Source: Prosthecobacter debontii (GTDB lineage: Bacteria > Verrucomicrobiota > Verrucomicrobiia > Verrucomicrobiales > Akkermansiaceae). Taken from it: 48,540 nucleotides of DNA. Made by a program: the position numbers and the translations under genes. The stretch is from positions 1-48,540 of the forward strand of contig CAMAXN010000017.1 in the NCBI GenBank assembly GCA_945862245.1, read 5' to 3'. The notes under the pieces are model-generated. The model saw nothing but the letters and a program-made list of their open reading frames with translations, was not told the DNA's origin and made no database searches. Below are positions 14,448 to 22,713 of the stretch, piece by piece. Positions within the stretch are counted from its first letter, which is position 1. Every line of letters begins with the position of its first letter.

Positions 14448-15053
14448 ATGGACGCTCGCCACCCTTATGAAATGATCCCACTGTTCACTGCGGGATGCGT
14501 ACTGGGAGTGTGGCTGATCGGCTCCCACTCTTTGATGTTAGCGCGACCGGCGCTGGTCCAGGGTTGGTTGAAAAAATTTCCGCGCCATGCCCTCTCCGGG
14601 CAGATCATCCTCGGTATCGGTCTCGCATGGTTTTGGCTGCTTGTCGCGCCGGAAGGCATGGGCAAGCTCAGTGCCCTATGTATGGATCTCGGCGAGTTCA
14701 ACAACATTAAGCCTACACTGAGGCTGCTGGTGCCCGCCACGCTGGTAATGGTTGCAGTGAGTGTGCGCGACTTTCTAGCGGTGCGAGCCTTGGGCGTGCT
14801 CGGGCTGATGATTGCCGCGCCGTTGCTGGATGCCGCTTTCCTGAAAGAACCTTCCAGCCGCCTGCTCATTCCGATTTTCGCCTATGTGTTGCTGACGGTA
14901 TCGATGTATTTGGTGGGGATGCCCTACCTCTTCCGCGATGCGGTGACATGGCTAACAACTACCCCAGCAAGATGGAGGATAGCCTGCCTTCTAGGGCTGG
15001 GCTACGGCGTAGCCACGCTGATCTGCACATTCGCTTTTTGGCGAAATTACTAG
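14448..15053 (+). CDS. Unknown six-helix membrane protein
   Basis: I do not recognise this 201-residue protein. It has about six hydrophobic stretches (for example LFTAGCVLGVWLIGSHSLML, LVPATLVMVAVSVRDFLAV, VLGLMIAAPLLDAAFL and a C-terminal GLGYGVATLICTFAFW) with short polar loops. It ends in a basic segment and FWRNY. It is transcribed divergently from the thiol-protein operon. Its stop lies 4 bp from the convergent entericidin-like gene. The frame stays open throughout with coding-like codon use, so the gene is probably real. Function is unknown. Confidence 0.7.
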   Translation: MDARHPYEMIPLFTAGCVLGVWLIGSHSLMLARPALVQGWLKKFPRHALSGQIILGIGLAWFWLLVAPEGMGKLSALCMDLGEFNNIKPTLRLLVPATLVMVAVSVRDFLAVRALGVLGLMIAAPLLDAAFLKEPSSRLLIPIFAYVLLTVSMYLVGMPYLFRDAVTWLTTTPARWRIACLLGLGYGVATLICTFAFWRNY

Positions 15054-15057
15054 GAGA

Positions 15058-15243
15058 CTAGTAAATAGGAGGAGCGCCAGATTGATCATCCGAAGTATAA
15101 CCTCCGGTCTTTTCCTCCGCTTTTTTCTCCATTTCAGTGCCGAGCACACGCATGTCCCGCCCCAAGCCAATCGCGGTGTTGCATGATGACAGGGTGATGA
15201 GAGTAATAATGCTAATAAATATCGTATTCAAAGTGCGTTTCAT
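15058..15243 (-). CDS. Entericidin-like small lipoprotein
   Basis: The 61-residue peptide has a short signal with a lipobox, ITLSSCNTAIGLGRDM, lipid Cys at 21. The mature part (CNTAIGLGRDMRVLGTEMEKKAEE) resembles entericidin EcnA/EcnB, small membrane lipoproteins that act as a bacteriolytic peptide and antidote pair in enterobacteria. In many other phyla a single copy occurs, with unknown role. A Gly-Gly-Tyr-Thr tail follows. The ATG at 15243 lacks a Shine-Dalgarno sequence. It lies 33 bp after the stop of the acidic protein gene. Confidence 0.75.
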   Translation of the reverse strand: MKRTLNTIFISIITLITLSSCNTAIGLGRDMRVLGTEMEKKAEEKTGGYTSDDQSGAPPIY

Positions 15244-15276
15244 GTAGGTAAAAATTGCGGTCAGAGACCGCGGTTG

Positions 15277-16467
15277 TCAACTTTTCTTGATTTCGCGGCG
15301 CATTTTGATGATTCCATCGCGGATCATAAAAATTTCGTGACGGAGGTTTTCGAGATACGCGCAGGCGTCGGGATCGTCTGCATCGGCGATCATTTCACCG
15401 CAGGCACCTACGGCGTCGTTAATCCAGTTCAGGCAGCGTTTCAAAACGGCGAGGACGAACCCGGCTTCTGGTTCGTAATCGCTACCATGCCCATGGAGCA
15501 CGCCCGCCAGCTTGGCGCTGACCTGCATGAGATTGGAAACGAGCCGCTGGGCCGGGCTGTCCTTGTCATCGCCGCGACTCACCAGATCAAAGCTACGCAT
15601 GGCCACTTCGCGGGCCTTGGCCTGGAGCGGGTGGCTTTCGGCCAACCATTCGTCTTCGCTTTCATTGTCTTCATCGTCCCCATCGGAGTTTTGCCATTCC
15701 TCCAAGAAATCCGCTTCTGTAGCTGAGTCCTCGTCCTCTCCGTTTTCCTCGCGCTCTGCCATAGCTCCGAGAAGACCATCCCAGCCCATCACGAATGCCT
15801 CTTTCCGCTCACTGTCGTAGTCGTCGATGTATTTTTCTAATACCTCCTGATAGGCGTCACTGAGGCGATCAGATTCTTTGAGGCGCTCTTCCCACTCAAA
15901 TTCGTCGAGTTCGCCTTTGTTGGTAACGGATGCACTTTCTACTAAATCGTCGAGCTCATTGCGGCGTATCACCTGGGCGAGGAAATCCCGCATCGCGCTC
16001 AGGTTGGCGAGTTTCTGCGCTTCCTCCTGATCCTCATCCATCTGCCACCCGCTAGCGGAAACTTTCAGTTGGTAATCCGCCGCCTCGATGAGCACCCGCC
16101 CGTTGATTTCGCTGAACCACTCGATATAGAGGATGTTGCTCCACTGGTAAGGTATTTCCTGTCCACGCCGTTCGCACTCGTCCATTTCTTCCTCGGAAAT
16201 TTCCGGTACACGTGCTTTTCGTGAGGCGGTGATATCGCCGATGATGCCGGTCTGCTCGGTATCGAGTTCGGAAGCCTCGGGGCAGACACGGGGTTTGGGA
16301 TTCTCAAACTCCAGCACGGTTCCTGCGAGATCGCGCCAACAATCGCCGTTAAGGGAAAGGATCAGCGGCTCATCGCGGCCGGCGAGCCAGATCTTGCCAG
16401 TGGTGAGCCCCTCGACGGTGTTGTCGATCAACCCGTGTTCCACCGCTTCATCCACGCGCCATGCCAT
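15277..16467 (-). CDS. Unknown, highly acidic 396-residue protein
   Basis: I do not recognise a family. The protein has no signal peptide or membrane segment, so it is probably cytosolic. The first 100 residues look like a small beta-rich domain (KIWLAGRDEPLILSLNG). Residues 155-275 are very rich in Glu and Asp, with a low-complexity acidic run around 235-275 (NSDGDDEDNESEDEW). The C-terminal 110 residues look alpha-helical (AQRLVSNLMQVSAKLAGVL and EIFMIRDGIIKMRREIKKS). The frame is long, uses normal codons and contains no conflicting better ORF, so it is a real gene. Function cannot be assigned. It is transcribed divergently from the kinase gene. Confidence 0.72.
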   Translation of the reverse strand: MAWRVDEAVEHGLIDNTVEGLTTGKIWLAGRDEPLILSLNGDCWRDLAGTVLEFENPKPRVCPEASELDTEQTGIIGDITASRKARVPEISEEEMDECERRGQEIPYQWSNILYIEWFSEINGRVLIEAADYQLKVSASGWQMDEDQEEAQKLANLSAMRDFLAQVIRRNELDDLVESASVTNKGELDEFEWEERLKESDRLSDAYQEVLEKYIDDYDSERKEAFVMGWDGLLGAMAEREENGEDEDSATEADFLEEWQNSDGDDEDNESEDEWLAESHPLQAKAREVAMRSFDLVSRGDDKDSPAQRLVSNLMQVSAKLAGVLHGHGSDYEPEAGFVLAVLKRCLNWINDAVGACGEMIADADDPDACAYLENLRHEIFMIRDGIIKMRREIKKS

Positions 16468-16624
16468 GCACCATATGATCCCACCTCGACGGCGACCGTC
16501 AAGCAGGCTGTTTTAGGCGGAACGAGAGCCCGTCAATAAATTCGCCTGCCCGGCATCGCTTTGTATTTCTCTGCCAGGGCAATCGTTTATTTTCTGCGCT
16601 TGCGCTTGCCACACGCCCGTGCTC

Positions 16625-16653
16625 TTGACAGATCAGGGGGGCAGTGTGAATAC
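16625..16653 (+). promoter_or_regulatory. Candidate promoter of the Ser/Thr kinase
   Basis: A perfect -35 box TTGACA lies at 16625-16630. The -10 is poor: GAATAC at the canonical spacing, or TACATT at 16651-16656 with a 20-bp spacer. The kinase ATG is at 16666, so the leader would be very short. Confidence 0.35.
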
Positions 16654-16665
16654 ATTCCATTCCAG

Positions 16666-18276
16666 ATGAGCGAAACGACGCATGGCACCCCGTTCGAAGC
16701 TCCCGAGTTGGAGGAAGTCGCGCGGCTTTTCCCCAATTACGAGATCCTCGGACTTATCGCGTGCGGAGGCATGGGTGCGGTTTACCACGCGGTGCAGTCG
16801 TCGCTGGAGCGTCCGGTGGCGATCAAGATCCTACCGCGCGACTTCTCCACGGATGCGGAGTTCCGCGCCGGCTTTGAATCCGAGGCGAAGGCGATGGCGA
16901 AATTGAACCATCCGAACCTGATCGGCGTCTATGATTTCGGCGAGGTGGAGGGGCTGCTTTTCATCGCGATGGAGTTTGTGGCAGGGCAATCCCTGCACCA
17001 TGCCTCACACGGATGCCCCTTCGAACATGCGGACGCGGTCCGTCTGGTCATCGATGTCTGCCACGGCCTCGCGCACGCCCATGAGTTCGGCATCCTGCAC
17101 CGGGATATCAAACCTTCCAACATCCTTCTCGACGACCAGATGAACCCGAAAATCGGGGATTTCGGTCTAGCGCGGCCGCTGGAGCGTCAGATCGAAGAGG
17201 GCGAGCAGATTTTTGGGACGCCGGGATATACGGCACCGGAAGTCTTGCGTCCTCCCTTCACGATCGACCAGCGTGCCGACATCTTTTCCGTGGGCGTGAT
17301 GCTCCATGAGCTTCTAACAGGTCATTTGCCGGATGCAGATCCGCGCCCGGCCTCGCAGATCTGTGGTTGCAACCGGCGCCTTGACGTGGTGATCCAGCGC
17401 GCCACCGACCCGAATCCCAACCGCCGCTTCGTAAGCGCAATGGAATTCGCAAAAGAGTTGGAGAAGATCGCCGCTGCGCCGACCCTCACACTAGGGACCG
17501 CTCCTTCACGTGCTCTCTCTCGGCCAAAGCCAGCTTTATCAAGTCCCGCAGCGGCCTCTTCCCTACGTCAGCAAAGTGCATTAGGCCAGCCGAAAACCTT
17601 TGCCAAGGAATCTTCGGGAACCGGCCTCGTCATTTTCCTCATTGTTGGGTTGCTCGGTGCTGTCGCCGCGTATTTCGTGATCAAGGACAGGCAAGGCGAA
17701 GCACCAGCGCCGGTTTCCCCGCCGCCCAAGCCCGCTGTGGCAGTGAATCCGCCCCCGCCTTCGAGCCAAGAGCCTGTGGTGGATGATGCGGAGGAACTCG
17801 ACCCAAAGGATATCCTACGCCGCACCCGCTCATCGATACGCCAGCGGCTTGGTCCATCCCTCGAGAGCCACCGCCTCGACATGAAGGAGAACCTTGCAAA
17901 TTACAAAAAGGCGATGGAAACCGCCTCGGAGGGGCTTTCCTTCAAGGATCGAGAACGCATTAGCGAAGCCCTTTCCGAAAATCTAGGTATCTGGGAAAAA
18001 AGCGGAGACAAGATTCCGAATACCCTTCCCGCCAGCTTCGGGGTGATTGAGAGTGTGGTGAATATCCATGACACTTATGTCGAGAAACAAGCTAAACTTG
18101 AACGCGATCTCGAAAGTGAGATTGCATCACTCGCCGGAGTTTATGTGCTGGAGTTGCAGAACCAGATTGAGCAAATCTCAAAAAACGGGAATGTCCTTGC
18201 AGTCGCCGCCTTGGAGGAAGAGGCCCAGGCCGTGCAGGAGAATGTGCAGCGCTTGCGTGAGATGATAGTCGATTGA
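16666..18276 (+). CDS. Hanks-type Ser/Thr protein kinase, membrane anchored
   Basis: ATG 16666 gives 536 residues. The kinase domain spans about 25-270, with glycine loop CGGMGAVY, VAIK (Lys54), HRDIKPSN (145-152), DFG (165-167) and GYTAPE. All catalytic residues are present, so activity is expected. A Pro-rich linker follows, then one transmembrane helix near 320-339 (LVIFLIVGLLGAVAAYFVI). A Pro-rich segment and a helical, probably coiled-coil C-terminal domain (about 370-536) lie on the outer side. No PASTA or other recognised sensor domain is seen. Such kinases sense envelope signals and phosphorylate FHA partners. An ABC protein with FHA-like segments lies 4.4 kb downstream. It converges with the thioesterase gene, 6 bp apart. 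Confidence 0.93.
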   Translation: MSETTHGTPFEAPELEEVARLFPNYEILGLIACGGMGAVYHAVQSSLERPVAIKILPRDFSTDAEFRAGFESEAKAMAKLNHPNLIGVYDFGEVEGLLFIAMEFVAGQSLHHASHGCPFEHADAVRLVIDVCHGLAHAHEFGILHRDIKPSNILLDDQMNPKIGDFGLARPLERQIEEGEQIFGTPGYTAPEVLRPPFTIDQRADIFSVGVMLHELLTGHLPDADPRPASQICGCNRRLDVVIQRATDPNPNRRFVSAMEFAKELEKIAAAPTLTLGTAPSRALSRPKPALSSPAAASSLRQQSALGQPKTFAKESSGTGLVIFLIVGLLGAVAAYFVIKDRQGEAPAPVSPPPKPAVAVNPPPPSSQEPVVDDAEELDPKDILRRTRSSIRQRLGPSLESHRLDMKENLANYKKAMETASEGLSFKDRERISEALSENLGIWEKSGDKIPNTLPASFGVIESVVNIHDTYVEKQAKLERDLESEIASLAGVYVLELQNQIEQISKNGNVLAVAALEEEAQAVQENVQRLREMIVD

Positions 18277-18282
18277 GGTGGC

Positions 18283-18690
18283 TCAGCCTTTTTCCCCAAA
18301 ACCTTGGGGCAAGCGCTGCGGCTTACCTTCAGGCATTTTCACCAGTGCCAGCGCCTGCCGCGCAGTGACCAGCAGCGCCCCATCCTCCTCGCGGTGCATC
18401 TCGAACTCGCACCAAAACCTGGCTGCGCTCAGCTCCCCGAGCTTGCCCCGTATTTCAATCCAGTCACCGAGCTTCGCCGGCTTTTTGTAATCCACCTCGG
18501 TCCGGATCAGCACAGGGTAGATCCCCATTTCCGACATCCCACGTAAGTCCATGCCCAACGACGCTGCCAGCCTTGTCCGGCAGGTTTCTATCATACGTAG
18601 GTAGGCGAGGTTGTGCACCACGCCGCCGCAATCCGTATCGAAAAACATCACTTCCTCACGCGTCGCCAACTCGTTGATCGCTTCCTGCAT
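18283..18690 (-). CDS. Acyl-CoA thioesterase, YbgC/4-hydroxybenzoyl-CoA type
   Basis: From ATG 18690 the product is 135 residues, the normal length of a single hot-dog domain. The in-frame extension to 18780 is probably not used. The family motif FFDTDCGGVVHNLAYLRMIE is complete, including the catalytic Asp and the Tyr/Asn of the substrate pocket. Members hydrolyse acyl-CoA thioesters. In proteobacteria ybgC is linked to the Tol-Pal cluster, which is not present here. It lies between the kinase gene (convergent, 6 bp) and the pseudo-Lon gene (divergent, 83 bp apart). Confidence 0.88.
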   Translation of the reverse strand: MQEAINELATREEVMFFDTDCGGVVHNLAYLRMIETCRTRLAASLGMDLRGMSEMGIYPVLIRTEVDYKKPAKLGDWIEIRGKLGELSAARFWCEFEMHREEDGALLVTARQALALVKMPEGKPQRLPQGFGEKG

Positions 18691-18773
18691 GCGGCCAGCC
18701 TTGCAGAAAGGTGTGCCTTGTCGCAATATTCTCTTGTCTGACAACGTTGAATTGTGAAGTTGGTTCGTAAAGA

Positions 18774-20834
18774 ATGACAATTACTTCCCGATCATTATTC
18801 TCCACCGTGATTTTCAGCGCACTCACGGGTGTGGTCGGTGTGGCGCCTGCTGAGCAACCGCCCCCGGTCGTTGTGGTTCCGCAACCAAAGCCAACATCAA
18901 AGCCAACCTCTACACCGGCAGAGGACACCGAAGCCATTGCCATCTCCCAGGTGCAGGAGATGGCGGGAAGACTCGCCCGGGAAAAGGAAGTAGAAGGCGC
19001 CGCTACGCTCGCTCCTCCAGTGGTCGCGCCACCGCCTGTCCGCGATTTCACTCCCAGCGATAGGGAAAAGATGAGCCTTCTGAAAGCCAACGGCAGTGCG
19101 GCGCCAACCTTCGTCCCGCCAAGTGAGGCAATGCCGCCTTTCCGCAGGGATAGGCTTCCAATCAATACGGATGCAATGATTTCCCTCTCGCAGATGATGA
19201 TGCTGCTTTCACAGGGAGCCTCGATGGATGAGGCTCCGCAACGCCGCGCCGTTGCGCAAGCGCTTGCCCTCGCCCTTGCCCGCGATCCCGCAAACTCCTA
19301 CGCCCGCGACATTCTTTCCTCCATTGCCGAGAGTAAACGCCTAGGTGATCCGGATCCAGAAAAACTCGACCACGCGAAGACGCAGATATGGAAACTAAAC
19401 GACTGGCTAAGCACACCAGAGGCGGGCAACGATGGCAATTTACTCGCCGACCTTCTCGGTGATACGGCCGCGGCTCTTGACCCTGAGCATCCATCGGCCG
19501 AAGAATGGATTAATTTCGGCGAGCGCGGCAAGTGGGACGGCTGGGTGGATCCGCTCGCCTCTTTCCAAGAGCGCGAGAAGAGCAGCCCACCACCCATTGC
19601 AAACATTGAGGCGAATAAGCCCGATGCGACACCCGATAAAAAACTTTTCTCCGAGCTGAAATCTTCCAGTGGCTCGATCGGAGCGGTTCTCTACGACAAT
19701 CAGCCGAACACCGATTCCTACGTCCTCGGCCGCGTAAACGTGTTTATGCAGGCGACACCTCTGTCCGATAAGAAGGGGGATGAGATAGGAATCCAAAAGT
19801 TGAACATTAAGATAAATTGTAGCGAATCGGTCAGCTTGGAAGTCTTTCAAAAAGTGTCCACTCCCATCATCAAGGCGCTTGCTAAGGTGCATGATGTGAA
19901 CGAGAGCATCTTGCCGAAGGTCGAGATCAGAATCCGTACTGGAAAGGCCGAATCCTATTCCATCCGGCGCAACGACGATGACATGACCGGGCCGGGCTTC
20001 ATTCTCGCTAACGCCGCTCTCACCGGCATCGCTCCCGATGCAATTTTCATGTCCAACCTAGATAGCGAAGGCGAAAAACTGGAACTTCCCGATTTCTTCT
20101 GGAAGAAACTAAACGCGCTCATCGATGATGACGGTGGTAGGTTGGTGGTCCCCGCCGCAGCTGAGGAATATCTCACCGCTCTGTTGGCCATGGAAAAGCC
20201 GGAGTTCTTCATGAAATTCGAGGTGCTACTCGCTTCATCGCCCGAGGAGGCCATCCGGCTTTGCGCGATGAAGCCGGATGCCGAGCTCGCGACCACGCTG
20301 GCTAAGTTCAAGCAGATCAAGGACAAGTCCACTTCCTCCGCTCTCGGCCCGTATCTTGCCAACGTGTACGTCCGCAAGCGCCTAGTTGAGATTTCACAAG
20401 CCGCCCCCTACCACCTTTCCGCAAAGCTACTCGCCATGCAAGGCGCAGGCGCTCATCCCCGCGCCCTCGATAAAAAAATCCTCGCTGTAGAGATCTTTGA
20501 TTCCGTTGATCCGCTCAACGAGTTCTCGGAAATGAATATCTGGGAGCTAAACGAGAAAAAAATCGAAGCCATGGGTGAAGCCCAAGATGAAACCCGCGAG
20601 CGGCTTAACCGCATCGAGCCCTACGCCCACACGCGTGACAGAGAACTTTTTACGAGCGCAGAGGATTTAATCGCCTACCTACGCTCGATGATCCGCATCA
20701 CCCAAGACAGAAGGACGCTATTGGAAAAAGGTAATGAAATCTCCAGAGCCCACCGCGCGTTCCAAGACGCGAACCGCAAAATGCGCCTCAATCTGGCGCT
20801 GATCACTGGAGAATCCCTGCCGAAAAATAATTGA
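18774..20834 (+). CDS. Secreted protein with a degenerate Lon-like (S16) domain
   Basis: The 686-residue protein has an N-terminal signal (SLFSTVIFSALTGVVGVAPA), a Pro-rich linker to about residue 120, and helical segments to about 290. Residues 300-500 resemble the Lon proteolytic domain: GSIGAVLY, strands KLNIKINCSES and KVEIRIRTG, then TGPGFILANAALTG, a DSEGEKLELPDFFWKKLNAL segment, GGRLVVP and ASSPEEAIRLC. The aligned catalytic Ser of GPSAG is Gly408, while the catalytic Lys position (Lys444) is kept. It is therefore probably an inactive, exported relative of Lon. The last 190 residues are charged and helical. This assignment is by eye only. It diverges from the thioesterase gene. Confidence 0.6.
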   Translation: MTITSRSLFSTVIFSALTGVVGVAPAEQPPPVVVVPQPKPTSKPTSTPAEDTEAIAISQVQEMAGRLAREKEVEGAATLAPPVVAPPPVRDFTPSDREKMSLLKANGSAAPTFVPPSEAMPPFRRDRLPINTDAMISLSQMMMLLSQGASMDEAPQRRAVAQALALALARDPANSYARDILSSIAESKRLGDPDPEKLDHAKTQIWKLNDWLSTPEAGNDGNLLADLLGDTAAALDPEHPSAEEWINFGERGKWDGWVDPLASFQEREKSSPPPIANIEANKPDATPDKKLFSELKSSSGSIGAVLYDNQPNTDSYVLGRVNVFMQATPLSDKKGDEIGIQKLNIKINCSESVSLEVFQKVSTPIIKALAKVHDVNESILPKVEIRIRTGKAESYSIRRNDDDMTGPGFILANAALTGIAPDAIFMSNLDSEGEKLELPDFFWKKLNALIDDDGGRLVVPAAAEEYLTALLAMEKPEFFMKFEVLLASSPEEAIRLCAMKPDAELATTLAKFKQIKDKSTSSALGPYLANVYVRKRLVEISQAAPYHLSAKLLAMQGAGAHPRALDKKILAVEIFDSVDPLNEFSEMNIWELNEKKIEAMGEAQDETRERLNRIEPYAHTRDRELFTSAEDLIAYLRSMIRITQDRRTLLEKGNEISRAHRAFQDANRKMRLNLALITGESLPKNN

Positions 20835-20847
20835 TTCCAGCGTTCGC

Positions 20848-21291
20848 TCAAATCCCGGCCGCAGGCTGCTTGCGTAACAGCTTCCTCGGCGTGGCCCAGT
20901 GATCAACGGCGGGATCGACGATGAAATCGCGGGCCAGCGCCTCGCGGCCTAACAGCAGGCGGTTGATCATGCGCTTGCGTGACACGAGGGATACGACCAC
21001 GCGTTTCTCGACCCCTGCCAACCGCAGCTGCGTCTCCACGAAAATCCGGCTTGTTGGAGGACCAGTCGAAGACCGCACTTTTTTTCGCGCAACAATATCC
21101 TCCTCAAGGATGACGAGTTTCTTGTCTTTGCGGTCGAGGCGGACGGTGAAACGCACGCGGTCGCCGGGCAGTTCGGTGATCTCGGCACAGTCAATGGCGC
21201 TGCTGCGCGCACCGGTATCGGCCTTGGCCTTGAGGCGTATGCCCCATTGGGACAACTCCGCCCACTCGCGCCAGCCTATCGTCATACTCAC
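20848..21291 (-). CDS. RimB-type ATP-dependent zinc protease (RimK-associated)
   Basis: The 147-residue protein matches the retropepsin-like RimB/DUF615-associated family: KADTGARSSAI carries the aspartyl motif DTGA, and LLGREALARDFIVDP is the second signature. In Pseudomonas RimA and RimB assist RimK in adding or removing glutamate on ribosomal protein S6. The start is a GTG at 21291, whose codon overlaps the rimK stop (GTGA); an ATG at 21285 is an alternative. The overlap implies coupled translation. It converges on the pseudo-Lon gene with 13 bp between stops. Confidence 0.87.
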   Translation of the reverse strand: MSMTIGWREWAELSQWGIRLKAKADTGARSSAIDCAEITELPGDRVRFTVRLDRKDKKLVILEEDIVARKKVRSSTGPPTSRIFVETQLRLAGVEKRVVVSLVSRKRMINRLLLGREALARDFIVDPAVDHWATPRKLLRKQPAAGI

Positions 21292-22481
21292 GGCTCGCCG
21301 CCTTTCAGTTTGGTAGGCAGCTTTTTTACCTTCCGGCGTTTACGTTTTTTAGCGGGGATGAGGCCTTTCATGTGCTCTCCCCTGCCATAGCAGAGAAGGG
21401 TGTCGTCGGCTTCTAGAACACGGCAGCCCTTGGGGTTGGAAATGACCGTGCCTTTGCGGCGGAGGGTAAGCACCACCACGTCATGCTCACGCAAGCCAGT
21501 CTGCTCGATCGTCATGCCCACATACGAGCTACCGATCGGGATGTGGATATCCGCTACCGAATAGCCACGCGAAACGGTGAGCCGCTGGCGTATGTCTATC
21601 TCGGGGAATTTCACCTGATCGGCGATGTAGTCGATGATCTCGCCGGCGATGTCGAGGCCGGTGGCTCCCTCGATGCCCTCAAGGCCGGGCGAGGAATTCA
21701 CCTCCATGATCTGCGGGCCGTCCTTTCCTTCCAACATATCTACGCCGCAGATGCGCAGGCCCATGATCTGCGCGGCGCGGACGGCGGCTTCCTCGTAGGC
21801 GGGATCAAGCGTGATAGCCTCCGCCTTTCCTCCGCGATGGACATTGGAGCGGAATTCCTGCCCTTGCGCCACACGTCGTATGGCAGCCACCACACAATCA
21901 CCTATCACAAAAGCGCGGACATCCTTACCCTTGCTCTCCGCCACGAATTTCTGGAGCAGCACCTGCTGTTTCGTAGAGTGCAGGGTCTCTACGATGGCGC
22001 GTGCGATCTCAATTTTGTCGGCGAGAATCACACCCACTCCCTGTGTGCCTTCGAGGAGTTTGATGATAACAGGCGCTCCGCCGACGCGCTGCAGGGCGTC
22101 CTCAAGGTCGCGCTTGTCGTCTACGTAGGCGGAGGTAGGGATGCCGACATCGTGGCGGGAAAGGATCTGCAGCGAGCGTAGCTTGTCGCGGGAATTGCTG
22201 ATTCCCGCCGCCGTGTTTGGCGTGAAGACATCCATCTGCTCGAACTGCCGAACGACGGCAGTGCCATATCGCGTGATCGAAGTGCCTATTCTTGGCAGCA
22301 CCGCATCTGGTGTACGCAGGGACTTGCCATGGTAATAAAGCGCCGGATCACCCTGATCGAGGCCAATGGTGAGTCGCTGAGTGTCGAGCACCTCGATCTT
22401 ATGACCGCGCTTCCTCCCCGCATCGATGAGGCGGCGGGTAGAATAGCACTTCGGTGAACAAGAAAGAATAGCTAGCTTCAT
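21288..22481 (-). CDS. rimK: RimK-type glutamate ligase (ATP-grasp) fused to an RCK_C/TrkA-C domain
   Basis: ATG 22481 gives MKLAILSCSPKCYSTRRLID, the RimK N-terminus; a longer start is unlikely. ATP-grasp signatures lie at 137-190 (VIIKLLEGTQGVGV, QKFVAESKGKDVRAFVIG) and 255-270 (QIMEVNSSPGLEGIE). RimK adds glutamate residues to the C-terminus of ribosomal protein S6. Residues 302-376 are an extra RCK_C-like domain (SVADIHIPIGSSYVGMTI, LREHDVVVLTLRRKG, EADDTLLCYG), followed by a Lys/Arg tail. RCK_C domains bind small ligands, c-di-AMP among them, so ligand control of RimK is possible. It runs into rimB by a GTGA overlap. The upstream 230-bp gap contains the palindrome CCCTTAAGGG (22563-22572). 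Confidence 0.88.
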   Translation of the reverse strand: MKLAILSCSPKCYSTRRLIDAGRKRGHKIEVLDTQRLTIGLDQGDPALYYHGKSLRTPDAVLPRIGTSITRYGTAVVRQFEQMDVFTPNTAAGISNSRDKLRSLQILSRHDVGIPTSAYVDDKRDLEDALQRVGGAPVIIKLLEGTQGVGVILADKIEIARAIVETLHSTKQQVLLQKFVAESKGKDVRAFVIGDCVVAAIRRVAQGQEFRSNVHRGGKAEAITLDPAYEEAAVRAAQIMGLRICGVDMLEGKDGPQIMEVNSSPGLEGIEGATGLDIAGEIIDYIADQVKFPEIDIRQRLTVSRGYSVADIHIPIGSSYVGMTIEQTGLREHDVVVLTLRRKGTVISNPKGCRVLEADDTLLCYGRGEHMKGLIPAKKRKRRKVKKLPTKLKGGEP

Positions 22482-22713
22482 ACGAGTGGGAAGGTCGTTA
22501 TTCATAAGCCGCGCCAATCGCCGCGTCAAAGCAAAGTCCTTAAATACCGGGAAAGTAAAACTCCCTTAAGGGTGTATCCGCCTTTCTCCATACAAAAATC
22601 CATCATCATAAATCACCTCGTATCCCGCTAGGATAAATTCTCCAGCTACGCCGAAGCTCACGCCATCATCCCCCGCAAACTGCGCGAAAGGTGGGAATAC
22701 AGATGAGGCTAAT

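Follow-up and report, generated by a model that had tools for sequence, protein, structure and literature searches.

A predicted exported S16 pseudoprotease of Prosthecobacter debontii and its possible role as a non-catalytic partner of envelope proteases

Both live AAA-less Lon domains outside the cytoplasm and dead Lon folds in DNA-handling ATPases are already known. SepM, which has a Lon domain without an AAA module, is extracellular. YlbL of Bacillus subtilis is described as a membrane protein in which a Lon domain with a Ser-Lys dyad is combined with a PDZ domain, with no AAA module, and which is likely extracellular (PMC6051672). The Lon folds of RadA, ComM and BrxL serve DNA-handling ATPases, and the Lon-like domain of RadA and ComM is required for oligomerisation (PMC11612176, PMC10164562). 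MamO is a dead protease that activates its live, HtrA-type relative MamE, and such losses are reported to have happened several times (PMC4794232), while in plastid ClpP/ClpR inactive subunits are retained beside active ones (PMC6508832). In a 2008 survey, 117 Lon homologues were counted, of which two lack catalytic residues, and one PDZ-Lon_C protein is listed (PMC2605481). Our searches of open-licence papers turned up no exported dead S16/Lon domain paired with a live one.

Here we describe a gene in a 48,540-nucleotide stretch of Prosthecobacter debontii DNA (the window), the product of which shares its three-part architecture and predicted N-terminal signal with an AAA-less 'S16 family serine protease' of Verrucomicrobiota (PF05362, NCBI name); the latter keeps Ser and Lys, whereas the window protein has Asp403 and Lys445. 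As in the YlbL/SepM type, the Lon domain comes without AAA, but the PDZ domain and the Ser-Lys dyad of that type are both absent. RadA, ComM and BrxL likewise have a Lon fold without a protease role, although theirs is fused to cytoplasmic DNA-handling ATPases. The MamO/MamE pair resembles our case in uniting a dead protease with a live relative outside the cytoplasm, a relation suggested here by gene adjacency in relatives, but MamO has a trypsin/HtrA fold, binds metal and functions in magnetosomes; ClpP/ClpR differs in having another fold, in being ATP-driven and in residing inside an organelle. The pairing described below makes it testable why bacteria repeatedly retain a dead protease beside a live homologue.

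Domain layout and relation to S16 proteases

The gene, its parts and the adjoining gene are as follows.

18774-20834, + strand: pseudoprotease gene by sequence, 686 aa, with a predicted S16 (Lon P) fold that lacks the Ser-Lys pair
18774-18851, + strand: predicted signal peptide, about residues 1-26 (hydrophobicity proxy 2.11; cleavage site set by eye)
18843-19074, + strand: DNA of the Pro-rich linker, internal copy of a stretch from another gene of the same genome (G000:C11)
19110-19568, + strand: N-terminal helical domain, residues 113-265, best-conserved part of the dead family
19665-20279, + strand: S16 (Lon proteolytic) domain, residues 298-502, from structure matches
19980-19982, + strand: Asp403 codon, site of the catalytic Ser (alignments; codon checked)
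20106-20108, + strand: Lys445 codon, site of the catalytic Lys (alignments; codon checked)
20280-20813, + strand: C-terminal helical domain, residues 503-680, with an APYHLSAK motif common to the intact sisters
18283-18780, - strand: divergent 4HBT-type thioesterase gene (PF13279, E 1.1e-17), true start possibly further in

A predicted structure search matched the window protein to the Lon P domain over the whole of that domain, in agreement with the fold proposed in a preliminary description of this DNA, and hexameric Lon entries as well as the Lon-like domains of RadA, ComM and BrxL were among the matches. The observation made there is confirmed in part, and its interpretation is supported in part. 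At the sequence level Pfam gave no PF05362 match even at E 10, and the protein is tied to PF05362 S16 through intermediates only, by way of hhalign matches to intact S16 relatives. We built two alignments, A1 for the dead-form family (65 rows) and A2 for intact AAA-less S16 proteins (17 rows). The A1 profile found matches in 49 of the 112 genomes of the order that were searched, and several of the weak ones were ORFs that also match Pfam Lon_C; these are AAA-less, carry the KDGPSA...GGVxxK pair and have an N-terminal hydrophobic segment in 15 of 17 A2 rows. In hhalign, A1 and A2 aligned across 530 columns (probability 99.5, E 2.7e-23), a span that takes in the C-terminal AP[YN]HLSA region; the S16 parts alone gave 95.2 (2.9e-8). 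The dead family is thus homologous to AAA-less Ser+Lys proteins over nearly its full length, both helical flanks included. The intact group in turn matched 19 LonA domains (98.9, 1e-17), whereas a direct comparison of the window family with LonA gave no match (hhalign 0.2). The window protein is predicted to fold like a Lon-type (S16) protease in its middle part, with a helical domain on either side.

Export is likewise predicted: a weak proxy for a signal, hydrophobicity, was positive in the window protein and in 61 of 65 A1 rows, yet also in 6 of 19 LonA controls. Pfam matched neither an AAA+ module nor a PDZ domain in the window protein, and the S16 flanks are helical. Its earlier designation as AAA-less stands, and that as exported stands as a prediction. 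The accompanying premise, that it would be unusual for a Lon domain to lie outside the cytoplasm with no AAA module, does not hold: YlbL, likely extracellular, is a counterexample (PMC6051672), and relatives that lack AAA but have Ser, Lys and N-terminal hydrophobic segments are frequent in the window's order.

The Pro-rich linker is an internal segmental copy placed between signal peptide and mature protein, with 84.1% DNA identity to the G000:C11 ORF over 233 alignment columns and 72% protein identity. The source ORF (P0099; L002) encodes 465 aa and is kinase-like by eye, without a Pfam match. Among the other aligned relatives the linker was not found, except for a related stretch in P0002.

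Loss of the catalytic pair and purifying selection

Two approaches, hhalign and MAFFT alignment of 53 sequences (31 dead, 22 intact), concordantly place the catalytic Ser at Asp403 and the catalytic Lys at Lys445. The catalytic Ser is missing, as the preliminary description had it, but neither residue equivalence given there holds: the Ser equivalent is Asp403 rather than Gly408, and the supposedly retained Lys444 gives way to Lys445, which is Lys in only 21 of 65 relatives, with Leu, Tyr and others elsewhere. At position 403 the 65 A1 rows have Asp (24), Ser (13), Ala (11), Asn (9), Thr (3) or others (5), and Ser403 and Lys445 occur together in none of them, a loss of the pair across the family, where the preliminary description had asked about the Ser. 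Asp403 coincides with Lys445 in 20 of 65 rows, and a salt bridge between the two may replace the catalytic pair. In a wider set of 125 distinct aligned rows, Ser and Lys were both present in all 53 with an intact motif and never together in the 72 without it, a count that includes truncated copies and two rows with gaps at the catalytic site.

In addition, Nei-Gojobori dN/dS was 0.09-0.42 in 26 dead-gene pairs with dS < 2, 0.03-0.43 in 33 intact-gene pairs and 0.10-0.28 in eight pairs of upstream dead genes, in a set where some loci stem from one genome entered twice. The dead protein is under purifying selection and is maintained. Judged by its sequence, the window protein is a pseudoprotease that has lost its catalytic residues and kept its constraint.

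Intact sisters, tandem pairs and the window's own lineage

Among 145 genomes of the window's bacterial family, the dead form is present in 105, an intact-like form (A2 profile match of at least 150 bits) in 51 and both in 49, the dead form being about twice as frequent; 56 of the 105, including the window's own genome, have no intact-like gene at this threshold. In 34 genomes the dead gene is followed on its own strand by the intact-like gene, which starts less than 0.7 kb further downstream; the profile ends are 82-614 bp apart. For this count one A1 row per genome was set against all 55 A2 rows of at least 150 bits, weaker rows being dropped, and only genes on the same contig and strand were compared; 36 pairs were found, all with the dead gene upstream and none in the reverse order, and two were set aside (G123, 1.28 Mb; G256, 1.9 kb). 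The 34 pairs come from five genera, two of which contribute 13 and 12, and are therefore not independent cases. The longest ORFs of a pair lie -98 to 120 nt apart (20 measured pairs). Another family of the order also has the dead-then-intact order, with three pairs overlapping by 4 nt and one with a 3-nt gap.

By alignment, Ser and Lys are kept in 33 of the 34 tandem partners, in all of 30 partner loci, nine of which read LDGPS or VDGPS, and in 48 of the 50 intact-like rows aligned, out of 55 in total. A SepM model matches the intact sisters weakly. Individual copies depart from the pattern: the intact-type tandem partner G260:C45 (L243) has Gln for Lys, hence a dead-dead tandem, the intact-type copy G269:C235 (L253) has Tyr for Ser, and G278:C121 retains both catalytic residues in a degenerate motif. 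In family f4, every one of the tandem copies at loci L047, L049, L052 and L053 carries the KDGPS motif; L052:4352-6601, labelled intact in our tree, has the sequence GGVAERIRG, in which Arg takes the position of the Lys.

In a quick tree of 63 rows, made with the two catalytic columns left out, two switches between dead and intact are required, and two is also the number that its starred branches impose. In G043, G068 and G023 the upstream dead genes are nested within the intact group, apart from the window's own, main dead branch, the base of which is weakly supported (SH-aLRT 56). On this tree the catalytic pair has been lost at least two times.

Of 22 genomes searched in the window's genus, the dead form is present in 17 and an intact-like form in one (G239); 16 of the 17 lack an intact-like gene. 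Family searches of the window's own genome (94.9% complete, 83 contigs) found no intact sister. There, a single ORF matches Lon_C above the cut-off; it carries a KEGPSFDLPIAL motif and we take it to be ComM-like. An HtrA homologue (53% identity) is encoded at C6:52286-53749. Neither an S16-type protease gene nor HtrA adjoins the dead gene at the window locus. Among 33 named loci, some of which are the same records as genomes of the larger set, the thioesterase gene adjoins the dead gene in 30 and the other three start at or near a contig end; HtrA and OmpA-type genes lie downstream in five, an ankyrin/L,D-transpeptidase type gene follows in two and the intact sister in one. As a separate observation, none of 18 distinct f1-family genomes has a LonA-sized Lon_C match, the best (50.8 bits) being an AAA-less S16 protein, whereas scores of 270-294 bits are reached by many genomes of the order's f2 and f3 families; LonA may be missing from the f1 family.

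A proposed non-catalytic partner of an envelope protease and its alternatives

Since in many relatives the dead form is encoded directly upstream of a sister that keeps the pair, it would likely assist a protease rather than cut. By analogy with MamO and its activation of MamE, we propose that the dead S16 protein, predicted to be exported, is a non-catalytic partner that binds substrates for a cell-envelope protease or activates it, a reading to which we give a probability of roughly 0.45. With no intact sister found in the window's own genome, it would act there on another envelope protease or alone, and the HtrA homologue encoded elsewhere is a candidate target, HtrA genes following the dead gene in some relatives. 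Such a role would assign a function to a gene of 105 of the 145 searched family genomes, the named relatives of which are now called 'hypothetical protein'. A broader version is more speculative: Verrucomicrobiales may possess an ATP-free extracytoplasmic Lon-type system of tandem dead and intact S16 paralogues, in which the pairing arose at least twice, and in the window's lineage the dead paralogue would have outlived its partner and taken on an envelope-proteostasis role of its own, while a salt bridge between Asp and Lys would keep the former active site locked.

A tentative alternative, akin to the peptide-binding scaffold suggested in the preliminary description, dispenses with the protease, the dead S16 domain and its helical flanks serving as a stand-alone scaffold or chaperone for envelope proteins or peptides. 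The 56 genomes that have the dead form without an intact-like sister would fit this, as would purifying selection and the stronger conservation of the N-terminal helical domain (mean majority fraction in A1 0.67; S16 0.55, C-terminal part 0.57); however, the dead gene adjoins its intact sister in 34 genomes and the pair was lost at least twice in such surroundings, which speaks for a link to a protease, at least in the ancestors. That link could also be structural. Lon proteolytic domains assemble as hexameric rings, such entries are among the structure matches, and adjacent genes in a single order, closely spaced and homologous over their full length, would suit a fixed dead subunit in a mixed S16 ring, as in ClpP/ClpR. 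We consider this improbable, as the dead form occurs about two times as often as its would-be ring partner and also in its absence, in the window's genome among others; the 56 solitary cases make a strict subunit role unlikely there.

That the protein is an enzyme whose S16 fold bears a new active site is hardly likely: polar positions are conserved in the S16 domain (Thr/Ser405, Thr/Ser417, Arg/Lys456, Glu483 and Ser488 in A1), but positions 403 and 445 vary freely and no conserved constellation of catalytic type was recognised in A1. Decay of a functionless gene is the least credible reading, largely refuted by the dN/dS values, the full-length open frame and the presence in 105 family genomes, even though the gene is the fastest-changing of the well-conserved block 14448-22529 when compared with L140 (64% identity, against 69-96% for seven neighbours).

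Finally, two neighbours of the gene deserve mention. A Ser/Thr kinase with a predicted extracytoplasmic tail is encoded at 16561-18276 on the + strand (PF00069, E 3.2e-46), and 11 of the 33 named loci have a homologue of it close to the dead gene. At 20848-22529 on the - strand, an ORF matching PF05618 ('putative ATP-dependent zinc protease') and a RimK-type ATP-grasp ORF that carries a TrkA_C domain overlap.
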